Source: Halobium salinum
Lineage (GTDB): Archaea > Halobacteriota > Halobacteria > Halobacteriales > Haloferacaceae
Assembly (NCBI RefSeq): GCF_026586625.1
Contig: NZ_JAODIW010000010.1
Span: 458,755-522,754, forward strand
Length of the DNA: 64,000 bases
Reading direction: 5' to 3'
The position numbers were made by a program, and so were the translations under genes. Position 1 is the stretch's first letter. Every line of letters begins with the position of its first letter. This document shows positions 17,510 through 54,641 of this stretch, in pieces. Below the pieces are notes generated by a model. It saw only the letters and a list, made by a program, of their open reading frames with translations. It ran no database searches and had not been told where the DNA came from.

Positions 17510-17563
17510 GGGGCCGTGGGACGACTCGACGCCGTGACGTAGCCTCCTGGGAGTCGCCACACT

Positions 17564-17693
17564 ACCGCGTCAGCGAGTCGGCCGCGCACGAATGCGCGCT
17601 CGTCGTTGCGCTCAGTCCCGGTGGTCGTCTACATCACCGCGTCAGCGAGTGCCGAGCAGACGGGACTGCTCGGCGTCGTTGCGCTCAGTCGTC
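17564..17693 (-). repeat. two tandem hairpin repeats at the MATE stop codon (same family as 43451-43760)
   Basis: Read on the MATE strand, the first unit opens with the gene's last codons and stop (GACGACTGAG) and continues GCGCAACGACG. A hairpin follows (GCCGAGCA/TGCTCGGC, 17651-17658 with 17667-17674), then ACTCGCTGACGCGGTG. The second unit repeats CTGAGCGCAACGACG, a CGCGCA-TTCG-TGCGCG hairpin (17583-17598) and CTCGCTGACGCGGT. Flanks are conserved; stems differ but remain paired. Confidence 0.8.
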
Positions 17694-19175
17694 GTCGGTC
17701 ACCGCCGCACCTTCCGACCCGGACCCTGCCTCCGGCCCGGACGACTCCGAGGGTGCCGCCTCCGACCCGCCGGGGCCGCCCGGGCCGTCGTCGACGACGG
17801 CCTCCTTCCACGTGCCGCGGGTGAACCAGGCGAGCGCCGCCAGCGCGGCGACCACGTCCGCGGCGGCGACGCCGACCCAGATACCGGTCGCGCCCATGTC
17901 GAGGAGGAACGCGAACGCGTAGGTCAGCGGCACCCGCAGACCGGCGAACGTCAGCAGCGAGAACGCCAGCGCGGTACGGGTGTTACCGGCCCCGCGGAAC
18001 GCGCCGAGCACGACGTGTCGGGTCCCCATGAACGCGAACATCACCGTCGAGATGCGGAGGTAACTCCGAGCGTAGCCGAGAGTGGCCTCCGCGGCCGGCG
18101 TGTCCGGGGGGAGAAACACCGTGACGATGGGGTCGGGAAACAGCGCGACCACGACGGCGACGACGACCATCACCCCGACGACGAGTTTCACCGCGAGGTA
18201 CGTCGCGCGCTCGGCGCGGTCCGGCCGGTCGGCGCCGAGGTTCTGGCCGACGACGGTGTCGACGGCCTGGCCCAGCCCGATGGCGGGGAGGAAGACGAGC
18301 GAGATGAGCCGGTTGCCGAGGCCGTAGGCGGCGACGACCGCCGGCGGGAACGACGCGACGAGTACCGTCATCACAACCAGCGCGAGCGACGTGGTCGACT
18401 GCTCGATGGCCGTCGGGACGCCGAGGTCGACGATGTCCTTGACCTGCTCGTAGCGCGGGCGCAGATGCTCCCGCCGGATGTCGGGGCCGACGCCCGTCCC
18501 GAACAGGACGTAGAACCCGAGAACCGTGGCGACGAAGCGCGCGAAGATGGTGGCGTACGCGGCGCCGACTATCTCCAGGCGCGGGAACGGGCCGACACCG
18601 AAGATGAGCAGCGGGTCGAGGACGACGTTCACCGCGACGGACACCATCATGATGCGCATCGGCGTCCGCGTGTTGCCGTACCCGCGCATGAGCGAGACGA
18701 ACACGAAGAACCCGAAGAGCGCGGGCGTCCCGAGCATGAACACCTCCATATAGTCGGTCGCCATCGGGACGAGCACCGCACCCGTCTCCGCGTCGGTCGG
18801 CAGCAGGGAGAGCAAGGGGTCGGTCAGAAAGTACCCGAGGAGCGCGAGCCCTATCGACACCAGGCCCACGAAGGAGATGGTCTGCCCGGCCACGAGGCCT
18901 GCGGCCGTGTCGCCGCCGGCCCCGCGGTGCTGGGCGACGAGGATGGCCCCCGCCGCGGTGAACCCGCCGCCGACCGAGATGAGAAAGAAGATGAGCGGAA
19001 AGGCGAGCGAGATGGCGCCGACCGCGGTCGCGGAGAGCCGACCCAGCCAGAACGTGTCGGCCAGGTTGTAGGCGACCTGCAGCAGCTGGATGACCACCAT
19101 CGGCCACGCCAGCCGGACCATGGGTCCGACCAGGTCACCTTCCGTCAACTCGTTGTCGGCGACGCTCGAAGACAC
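17685..19175 (-). CDS. MATE-family efflux transporter
   Basis: A 496-aa antiporter with twelve hydrophobic spans in two repeated halves (LVRLAWPMVVIQLLQVAYN ... ATAVGAISLAFPLIFFLISV; second half from PTAIEQSTTSLALVVM). Family members expel cationic drugs or toxins against Na+ or H+. The start is GTG at 19175, supported by a TATA-like CTTGAAATA on this strand about 27 bases upstream. The last ~35 residues are an acidic Ser/Pro/Gly tail. The stop codon lies inside the first copy of an unusual tandem hairpin repeat. Confidence 0.92.
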   Translation of the reverse strand: MSSSVADNELTEGDLVGPMVRLAWPMVVIQLLQVAYNLADTFWLGRLSATAVGAISLAFPLIFFLISVGGGFTAAGAILVAQHRGAGGDTAAGLVAGQTISFVGLVSIGLALLGYFLTDPLLSLLPTDAETGAVLVPMATDYMEVFMLGTPALFGFFVFVSLMRGYGNTRTPMRIMMVSVAVNVVLDPLLIFGVGPFPRLEIVGAAYATIFARFVATVLGFYVLFGTGVGPDIRREHLRPRYEQVKDIVDLGVPTAIEQSTTSLALVVMTVLVASFPPAVVAAYGLGNRLISLVFLPAIGLGQAVDTVVGQNLGADRPDRAERATYLAVKLVVGVMVVVAVVVALFPDPIVTVFLPPDTPAAEATLGYARSYLRISTVMFAFMGTRHVVLGAFRGAGNTRTALAFSLLTFAGLRVPLTYAFAFLLDMGATGIWVGVAAADVVAALAALAWFTRGTWKEAVVDDGPGGPGGSEAAPSESSGPEAGSGSEGAAVTDDD

Positions 19176-41351: not shown

Positions 41352-41530
41352 CGGGCCACCTCGGCGGTCGCCGGCGGGAGGAACGAATCGGTTACTGTCA
41401 CGCCCGCGGATACGGGCGAGACGGGCAAAAGGGTTCGTCGCCCGGCCGTCCCTGCCGCCAGTCCGCGGGGCGGTCGGACCCGACTGTGGCGTCACGGTCG
41501 ACACGCCCCGACGAGACCGATGTTGCAAGA

Positions 41531-41537
41531 CTTAACA
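41531..41537 (+). promoter_or_regulatory. TATA-like box of the DHH gene
   Basis: CTTAACA is centred 27 bases before the ATG at 41561 and selects that start over the in-frame ATG at 41486. Confidence 0.55.
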
Positions 41538-41560
41538 CCGGTCACCCGCTTACTCCAGCC

Positions 41561-43459
41561 ATGACCAGCGAGCACGCCGGGGATTCCGGCTCCGGGTCGG
41601 ATTCTCGACCCGTCGTCTACGACCTCGCGCCCGACTGTACCGTCGCGGACGTCGAGGTCGGTCAGCTGTATCACGCCGTCGTGAACGGCGTCGTGAACTA
41701 CGGCGTCTTCGTCGACATCTCCGACTCCGTCTCCGGGCTCGTTCACGAGTCCAACCTCGACAACGACTACTCGGTCGGCGACAAGTTCGTCGTTGAACTG
41801 GAGGAGGTCCGCGAGGACGGCGACCTCGCCTTCGCCGAGGCGACCCCCGAGAACTACCGCACCGAGACCGTCGACCACGTCCCCGACCTCACCGAGGTCC
41901 AGTCGCTCCGGACGGGCGACTCGGTCACCGTCGAAGGGTCGGTCTCGCAGATAAAACAGACCGGCGGCCCGACCATCTTCCACATCAGCGACGAGACCGG
42001 CATCGTCGCCGCCGCTTCCTTCGCCGAGGCCGGCGTCCGCGCCCACCCCCGCGTCGAGGTCGGCGACATCGTCCGCGTGAAGGGGAGCGTCGAGAAGCAC
42101 AACGGCGCCCTCCAGCTCGAAGTGGAGGACATGCGGCTCCTCGAGGACGACGTCGCCGCCGAGGCCCGCGAGCGCATCGAGGCCGCCCGCGACGAGCGCG
42201 CCGAGCCCCACGACCCCGAACCGCTCGTCGAGTGGGAGGCCTTCGAGAAGCTCCGGGGCGACCTCCGCGAACTCGCCCGCCTGCTCCGTCGCACGGTGCT
42301 CGACGGCCGCCCCATCCGGGTCCGACACCACGCCGACGGCGACGGGATGTGCGCCTCGATTCCGGTCCAGCACGCCCTGGAGAACTTCATCCGCGAGGTC
42401 CACACCGACGCCGACGCGCCGCGACACCTGTTCAAGCGCCTGCCGAGTAAGGCGCCCTTCTACGAGATGGAGGACGTGACCCGCGACCTCAACTTCGCGC
42501 TGGAGGGTCGCGCCCGCCACGGCCAGAAGCTCCCCTTCCTGCTGATGCTCGACAACGGGTCCACCGAGGAGGACGTGCCGGCCTACCGGAACCTCGCCCA
42601 CTACGACATCCCAATCGCGGTCGTCGACCACCACCACCCCGACCCCGAGGCCGTCGAGGACCTGCTCGACGCCCACGTCAACCCGTACCTCTACGACGAG
42701 GATTACCGCATCACGACCGGGATGATGTGCGTCGAACTGGCGCGGATGATCGACCCCTCCATCACCGACGAGGTGCGCCACGTCCCGGCCGTCGCCGGCC
42801 TCTCCGACCGCTCGAAGGCCGAGGTGATGGACGACTACGTCGCCCTCGCCGAGGCCGAAGGGTACGACCAGGACCACCTGGGGGACGTGGGCGAGGCGCT
42901 CGACTACGCCGCCCACTGGCTGCGCTTCTCCAGCGGCGAGACGGTCGTCGACGACGTGCTCGACGTCGGGACCGACGAGGACCGCCACGAGGAACTCGTC
43001 CAGTTCATGGCCGACCGCGCCGAGCGCGACGTGGAGAAGCAGCTAGACGCCGTCGAACCCCACGTCGAACACGAGCGGCTCTCCTCGGACGCCCACCTCT
43101 ACACCATCGACGTCGACCAGTTCGCCCACCGCTTCACCTACCCCGCGCCGGGGAAGACGACCGGTCAGCTCCACGACCGGAAGGTCCAGGAGACGGGCGA
43201 CCCGGTCATCACCATCGGCTACGGGCCGGACTTCGCCGTCCTCCGTTCCGACGGCGTCCGCCTCGACATCCCGCAGATGGTCGCCGAACTCGACGAGGAG
43301 GTCGTCGGCGGCGGCGTCTCCGGCGGCGGCCACCTCGTCGTCGGCTCCATCAAGTTCGTGAAGGGGATGCGCGAGGAGGTCATCGACTCCCTCGTCGAGA
43401 AGATGGCCGACGCCGACATCGACGAGGACCTGTCGAGCGCGGCGCCGCTGGACGACTGA
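41561..43459 (+). CDS. RecJ-like DHH/DHHA1 phosphoesterase with two OB-type domains
   Basis: A 632-aa protein. Order: S1-like OB domain (~25-95, GQLYHAVVNGVVNYGVFVDI), a second nucleic-acid-binding OB domain (~115-205, SVTVEGSVSQIKQTGGPTIF), DHH domain (RHHADGDGMCASI near 257; FLLMLDNGSTEEDV; VVDHHHPD near 357), and DHHA1 with the GGGH motif (VSGGGHLVVGSIKFVKG, ~586-602). The family hydrolyses single-stranded DNA/RNA 5'-3'; archaeal members take part in replication and repair. The gene ends APLDD-stop, and those last codons begin a tandem hairpin repeat array. Confidence 0.9.
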   Translation: MTSEHAGDSGSGSDSRPVVYDLAPDCTVADVEVGQLYHAVVNGVVNYGVFVDISDSVSGLVHESNLDNDYSVGDKFVVELEEVREDGDLAFAEATPENYRTETVDHVPDLTEVQSLRTGDSVTVEGSVSQIKQTGGPTIFHISDETGIVAAASFAEAGVRAHPRVEVGDIVRVKGSVEKHNGALQLEVEDMRLLEDDVAAEARERIEAARDERAEPHDPEPLVEWEAFEKLRGDLRELARLLRRTVLDGRPIRVRHHADGDGMCASIPVQHALENFIREVHTDADAPRHLFKRLPSKAPFYEMEDVTRDLNFALEGRARHGQKLPFLLMLDNGSTEEDVPAYRNLAHYDIPIAVVDHHHPDPEAVEDLLDAHVNPYLYDEDYRITTGMMCVELARMIDPSITDEVRHVPAVAGLSDRSKAEVMDDYVALAEAEGYDQDHLGDVGEALDYAAHWLRFSSGETVVDDVLDVGTDEDRHEELVQFMADRAERDVEKQLDAVEPHVEHERLSSDAHLYTIDVDQFAHRFTYPAPGKTTGQLHDRKVQETGDPVITIGYGPDFAVLRSDGVRLDIPQMVAELDEEVVGGGVSGGGHLVVGSIKFVKGMREEVIDSLVEKMADADIDEDLSSAAPLDD

Positions 43460-43760
43460 GCGCAACGACGGGCGCCGTTTCATCGGCGCCCACCTCGCTG
43501 ACGCGGAGGTGTTGGACGACTGAGCGCCACGACGCGGGCGGCTTGTCCGCCCGCGACTCGCTGACGCGGTGGTGTGACGACTAAGCGACGACGCCGAGCC
43601 GTCTTATCGGCTCGGCAATCGCTGACGCGGTGGTGTGACGATTGAGCGCAACGACGGCCGGAGTCTATCTCCGGCCGACTCGCTGACGCGGTGGTGTTGG
43701 ACGACTGAGCGCCACGACGGGGCGCCGTTTTCTCGGCGCCCAACTCGCCGACGCGCCGAT
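43451..43760 (+). repeat. five tandem ~62-bp hairpin repeats with varying, compensated stems
   Basis: Units begin at 43451, 43515, 43576, 43637 and 43700. Each has a left flank GACGACTGAGCGCAACGACG (small changes), an 8-9 bp stem-loop and a right flank CTCGCTGACGCGGTGGTGT. Stems (left arm/right arm): 43470-43477/43484-43491; 43533-43541/43547-43555; 43593-43601/43608-43616; 43655-43663/43669-43677; 43720-43727/43734-43741. Four different stem sequences, all perfectly paired; loops are T-rich. The first unit contains the DHH gene's stop codon. The array fills the gap to the convergent phospholipase-like gene. Confidence 0.85.
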
Positions 43761-43784
43761 GTGGACGACTACGACGGGCCGAAC

Positions 43785-54439: not shown

Positions 54440-54641
54440 ACGACGGCCCCTCCGGTCCGCCCTCGTCTATTCTTCACTCGCGCTCCCTGCTCCCGGCTCG
54501 CTGGCGCTCGCCGGAACCACGGTCACCGACGCCCTCTGGTCTCGGCTCACGTTCGTTCGCCGGGACCTCCGTCGTTGCCACTCCCTGCTCCCGGCTCGCT
54601 GACGCTCGCCGGGACCGACAGGCACGACACCCTCCGGTCCT
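54440..54641. repeat. ~98-bp tandem duplication in the trkH upstream region
   Basis: CTCCCTGCTCCCGGCTCGCT-GRCGCTCGCCGGRACC occurs at 54483-54518 and 54581-54616 (34 of 36 identical). A degenerate third copy lies at about 54538-54566. GACGSCCYCYGGTC boxes recur at about 54440, 54528 and 54627. The CCGGC...GCCGG arms in each copy can form a hairpin. It fills most of the 326-bp gap between trkH and the next gene, which holds no ORF of note. Confidence 0.65.

Follow-up and report, generated by a model that had tools for sequence, protein, structure and literature searches.

Why does a tandem array of hairpins whose stems differ from one unit to the next, with every stem still paired, lie directly on the stop codon of a gene? 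The question is posed by a 61-bp-period array at 43449–43770 of a 64,000-nucleotide stretch of the Halobium salinum genome (here called the window), the only array called at that place by TRF and repeat search. Its host gene (41486–43459, plus strand) is a 657-aa ORF for a RecJ-like/DHH protein with an N-terminal OB fold, and the C-terminus of this protein, ...LDD*, agrees with that of relatives that do not carry the array. Our initial annotation had described five units of about 62 bp that begin at the RecJ-like stop, with near-invariant flanks around four distinct, perfectly self-complementary stems, and each of these points held. Specifically, there are five units of 61–63 nt on the plus strand (43451–43762; starts at 43451, 43515, 43576, 43637 and 43700), with nearly fixed flanks and varying inner stems that are all perfectly paired; four kinds of stem occur among five units because units 1 and 5 have a common one, GGGCGCCG/CGGCGCCC. 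The spacing of the units is 61–65 nt, and thus the reading frame is not kept. Unit 1 (43451–43512; inner hairpin at about 43470–43491) contains the TGA, at 43457–43459, with which the RecJ-like ORF ends. A copy of the gene end, TTGGACGACTGA, precedes unit 2 (43515–43575; inner hairpin at about 43533–43555), which is followed by unit 3 (43576–43636; about 43593–43616) and unit 4 (43637–43697; about 43655–43677); a second gene-end copy precedes unit 5 (43700–43762; about 43720–43741), and a terminal copy, GGACGACTA, closes the array at 43763–43771. In folding, the array is more stable than shuffled sequence (z = -4.1), and its units contain two further helices, outer and middle, besides the inner stem, which the initial annotation had not noticed.

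Examination of the whole genome shows that these units belong to a dispersed family. A covariance model made from 43 units (R1), run in a search that scores a limited number of candidates per genome, finds approximately 75–77 units at E<1e-4; they make up about 40 arrays, each with 1 to 5 units. The right flank occurs 29 times in the 4.46-Mb genome when at most one mismatch is allowed. Almost all of the arrays (37–38 of about 40) overlap or adjoin the end of an unrelated gene, where genes were called as composition-filtered ORFs and most hosts have Pfam support. The hosts include an SRP54-type GTPase, the glutamate synthase GltB, a LeuA-type synthase, MatE, MscS and BCCT proteins, sugar and ion transporters, AFOR, a nitroreductase and others. 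In nearly all arrays the upstream ORF on the same strand stops exactly at the first unit's TGA, and the remaining arrays open with a variant unit, either B (GACTAGCCCGGAGCGACC...GTCGCGGAGGTGC) or C (TGACGCGGTCGC...CACCGCGGCAG), likewise at the stop. The window holds a second member, two units on the minus strand (17559–17693) at the stop of a MatE transporter gene (ORF 17685–19175, minus). Many arrays lie between convergent genes and many others upstream of a co-directional gene. There are two clear exceptions to the stop-codon placement, namely an array that is antisense between genes (L068) and a minus-strand copy in L073; in addition, the unit of L213 begins within the last codons, and the element of L027 sits at a TAG that lacks GACGACT. 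This dispersed repeat appears to be a REP-like family, not described before, of DNA hairpins that spread with the ends of genes as their target. Literature searches, restricted to open-licence papers, returned no description of the family, in keeping with the initial annotation, which knew of no described haloarchaeal element of this form, and Rfam gave no match near its gathering threshold.

At four loci (L029, L021, L034 and L020), type B is regularly joined to type A through an invariant junction, GGTGCGACTGAGCG; each pair seems to travel as one composite of two hairpins, and a gene-end copy follows the pair but does not separate its members. Separately, a 49-bp tandem repeat of 2.7 copies at 54483–54616 of the window contains CTCGCTGACGC, and the model search places no family member there.

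The units share a three-part fold, as predicted by RNAalifold from the 43 units: an outer helix that begins straight after the TGA (0–6 nt past the stop), a 3-bp middle helix, and the inner stem. The inner stem takes 46 different 7-nt sequences among 74 units. Of its pairs, 95% are Watson-Crick; all seven of the pairs tested show changes on both sides, and 92.8% of cells are paired versus 74.5% in shuffles, a signal that is lost when the register is slid. The middle helix covaries as well, from CGA/TCG to CGC/GCG and CGG/CCG. The loops, first described as T-rich, do contain T, but are better defined than that; they fit a conserved YYYRT in both of the lineages in which the family occurs. The alignment of copies therefore contains the covariation that the initial annotation had expected from a structure with compensatory changes inside fixed flanks, and a second genus has the same fold with other compensatory changes.

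Perfect stems could in principle arise with no selection on the fold, if template switching between the two arms mends any mismatch, so that stems would remain perfect as they drift, within arrays that are passive tandem repeats. The predominance of Watson-Crick pairs and the equal numbers of the two wobble classes would suit such a process, as would the unrelated gene-end tandem duplications that are present in other haloarchaea. However, correction between arms would not by itself keep the YYYRT loop class, the unpaired internal segments and the feet, all of which are kept in two genera, and the dispersal of units and the copying between loci require another process; we consider this explanation improbable.

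How the arrays are built can be read from the similarity of their units and from what lies between them. Units are hardly more alike within an array (69%) than between arrays (66%), and of 52 pairs of units with identical stems only 3 lie within one array; at the same time, two units in unrelated genes, DJ-1/PfpI (L009) and a Na/Ca exchanger (L031), have cores that are 98% identical. Simple in-place tandem duplication, which would give similar neighbours, was therefore rejected, and the observed pattern is the one predicted by insertion of foreign units together with duplication of the target. Consistent with this, the segment that follows a unit fits the end of its own gene better than the ends at other loci (7.03 versus 6.28, sd 0.16; 0 of 20000 permutations), a likeness that goes beyond the motif common to all loci, although the copies vary in length and many are imperfect; examples are found at L027 (TACGCGTAG), L040 (AGTACGG), L032 (GACGAGGACTGAGC) and L213. 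The DD* ending is rare in the window, where 3 of the 48 genes have it, yet arrays usually show it. For RecJ and GltB, relatives without arrays end at the same position, so that both the stop and the DD* ending are native there; together these points argue for GACGACT as a preferred target.

We propose that the array is a member of an archaeal family of REP-like mobile hairpins, dispersed structured DNA elements with a mode of action like that of REP/BIME or MITE repeats, and we hold this to be the somewhat likelier account of the locus. Of the suggestions in the initial annotation, a mobile repeat of the REP type and a mechanism that copies different hairpins into a fixed frame are the best fit to copies that are scattered, neighbours that are heterologous and gene-end duplications that are specific to each locus. 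A single element of about 50 nt comprises a GCG foot, the middle helix, a freely varying inner stem, the YYYRT loop, the return strands and a GG-N-GGTGT tail. In the mechanism that we envisage, it would enter at gene ends, preferably at GACGACT just ahead of a TGA, TAG or TAA stop, and its insertion would copy the local gene end onto its far side. This duplication would restore the target and allow other, different units to insert alongside, producing arrays of unlike hairpins. Pairing would be kept because recognition or copying acts on the hairpin itself, by way of its foot and loop, leaving the letters of the stem free provided that they pair. The inserted hairpins are probably transcribed as 3′-UTRs, in which they may influence mRNA ends, perhaps as an exaptation; such a secondary role is possible.

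Comparison with known systems is made here at the level of mechanism, which is REP- and MITE-like; we do not claim membership in either class. Like the GTAG- and CGTC-tagged REP/BIME elements (PMC3733652), the units are short dispersed palindromes with 8–9 bp stems and small loops, located at gene 3′-ends and often clustered, and the count of about 77 units in about 40 arrays agrees with the many clustered extragenic palindromes of those families. In contrast to them, neither an unpaired GTAG nor an unpaired CGTC tag (PMC3733652) is found at the 5′-end of the stem when the alignment is read on both strands, and the stem is not conserved by family, even allowing for subsets with different stems; its sequence is unconstrained and changes from one neighbour to the next, between fixed flanks. 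Further differences are the gene-end copy between units, which includes the stop, the strictly head-to-tail arrays, and the archaeal host. A Y1/RAYT transposase is also missing: Y1_Tnp (PF01797) has no match in this genome, whereas control genomes matched. We therefore rejected RAYT/IS200 as the mobiliser; CGTC REPs, too, have no known dedicated transposase (PMC3733652). MITEs resemble the family in being non-autonomous, short, structured and multi-copy; their ends, too, are short and complementary, and a duplication flanks them. Here, however, the complementary ends amount to only the 4–5 bp of the outer helix, the search for an autonomous partner, made with PF01797 alone, returned no parent element, and the locus-specific duplication, though significant, is an imperfect copy of a gene end of variable length, with insertion centred on stop codons. 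We put forward only tentatively the further idea of a new class of archaeal site-directed mobile hairpins that would be recognised by foot and loop only, duplicate the gene end when they insert at stop codons, build arrays of unlike hairpins, and rely on an enzyme unrelated to Y1 transposases.

Among the sampled genomes, and within the limited number of candidates scored in each, credible relatives occur only in one other genus of the same family, in all three of its sampled species, where arrays lie at the fumC and gltB stops in 3/3 species and at suhB in 2/3. In the present genome, too, arrays stand at fumC (one weak unit) and at gltB, and about twenty other genera have no family arrays at fumC, gltB or recJ. 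The units of the second genus fold alike and have the same loop class, and their outer helices covary (GCGAC/GTCGC, GCGGC/GCCGC and ACGAC/GTCGT). A model made solely from them (R2) finds 46 places in the present genome; thus both sets of units are one family. Outside these two lineages, a search with the right flank in 60 relatives gave four stray matches, the exact right flank in GTDB r220 and IMG/VR gave only stray matches in unrelated bacteria and none in viral contigs, and matches of R1 in other genera (E ~1e-4) were taken as chance; those inspected, from the 60 relatives and from R1, lay inside genes. The initial annotation had reasoned that copies confined to close relatives would count against its reading, and this proved partly so, the copies being limited to this genome and one related genus. 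The retention of fumC and gltB arrays over genus-level divergence implies that something keeps the pairing, either selection or renewal; with pairing intact across two genera, it also fits selection for a host function. Three members in the second genus (L207, L210 and L212) are intergenic, between co-directional genes and antisense to them; together with L068, and with L213 starting inside the last codons, they led us to reject a strict dependence on stop codons. L210 and L212, which come from two species, seem to occupy orthologous sites. In the last two units of the fumC array of one genome (L154, G067), the inner hairpin has been lost but the outer GCGGC/GCCGC helix remains, as does the linker.

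REP-like elements are known chiefly in bacteria, and their stems bear the sequence of the family. Here, in an archaeon and at stop codons, the structure is kept but the sequence of the stem is not, and the flanks record each presumed insertion. Two questions can thereby be put to the test: what copies a hairpin when its sequence scarcely matters, and, in archaea, does structure placed right after a stop codon affect termination or the 3′-ends of mRNAs? With their free sequence, the stems also amount to a natural covariation experiment in which selection on a DNA hairpin can be weighed against selection on an RNA hairpin.

The initial annotation had offered a multi-hairpin 3′-end or an mRNA stabiliser as alternatives, that is, hairpins right after the stop that guard or set the 3′-end or modulate termination or ribosome release, with compensatory changes holding an RNA fold. 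Most arrays are indeed sense-oriented and touch the stop codon, and the helix covariation, the conserved loop and the retention at fumC and gltB across genera are what such selection would leave. Precedents exist: in E. coli, REPs that lie no more than 15 nt from a stop, near enough to meet the terminating ribosome, down-regulate translation (PMC12306157), and a hairpin placed in a Haloferax reporter ended 59% of transcripts (PMC7237163). In the present family the outer helix starts 0–6 nt after the stop. However, G-U is the main intermediate of compensatory change in RNA terminators, whose stems likewise change and remain paired (PMC5381666), and here G-U mismatches do not outnumber A-C mismatches to any clear degree (14 versus 13 when both arms are scored neutrally; at internal positions 9 versus 11 in this genome and 4 versus 2 in the second genus). 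The antisense intergenic arrays (L068, L207, L210 and L212) show that an mRNA 3′-end is not the only possible location of the element, and no U-tract stands behind the hairpins. Selected mRNA structure is thus not specifically favoured; because the mismatch numbers are small, selection at the RNA level is weakened and no more, and we regard it as a possible but rather doubtful primary explanation. A narrower version, intrinsic-type transcription terminators multiplied at gene ends, would account for tandem GC-rich hairpins that often lie between convergent genes. Archaeal terminators end in a T-stretch (PMC7237163), whereas these hairpins are followed by GG-N-GGTGT and the gene-end copy; many arrays stand upstream of a co-directional gene, and terminators do not require sequence-specific flanks, which are conserved here together with the loop; this version is very unlikely.

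Unrelated tandem duplications of the last codons and the stop were also seen in other genera, at fumC (L177, G015), gltB (L233, G010) and recJ (L131, G002), with units of 37, about 15 and 40 nt, respectively. Duplicated stop-codon regions may thus be a wider haloarchaeal habit. At L177, each unit has a short hairpin, ACGGA...TCCGT, directly after the TGA.
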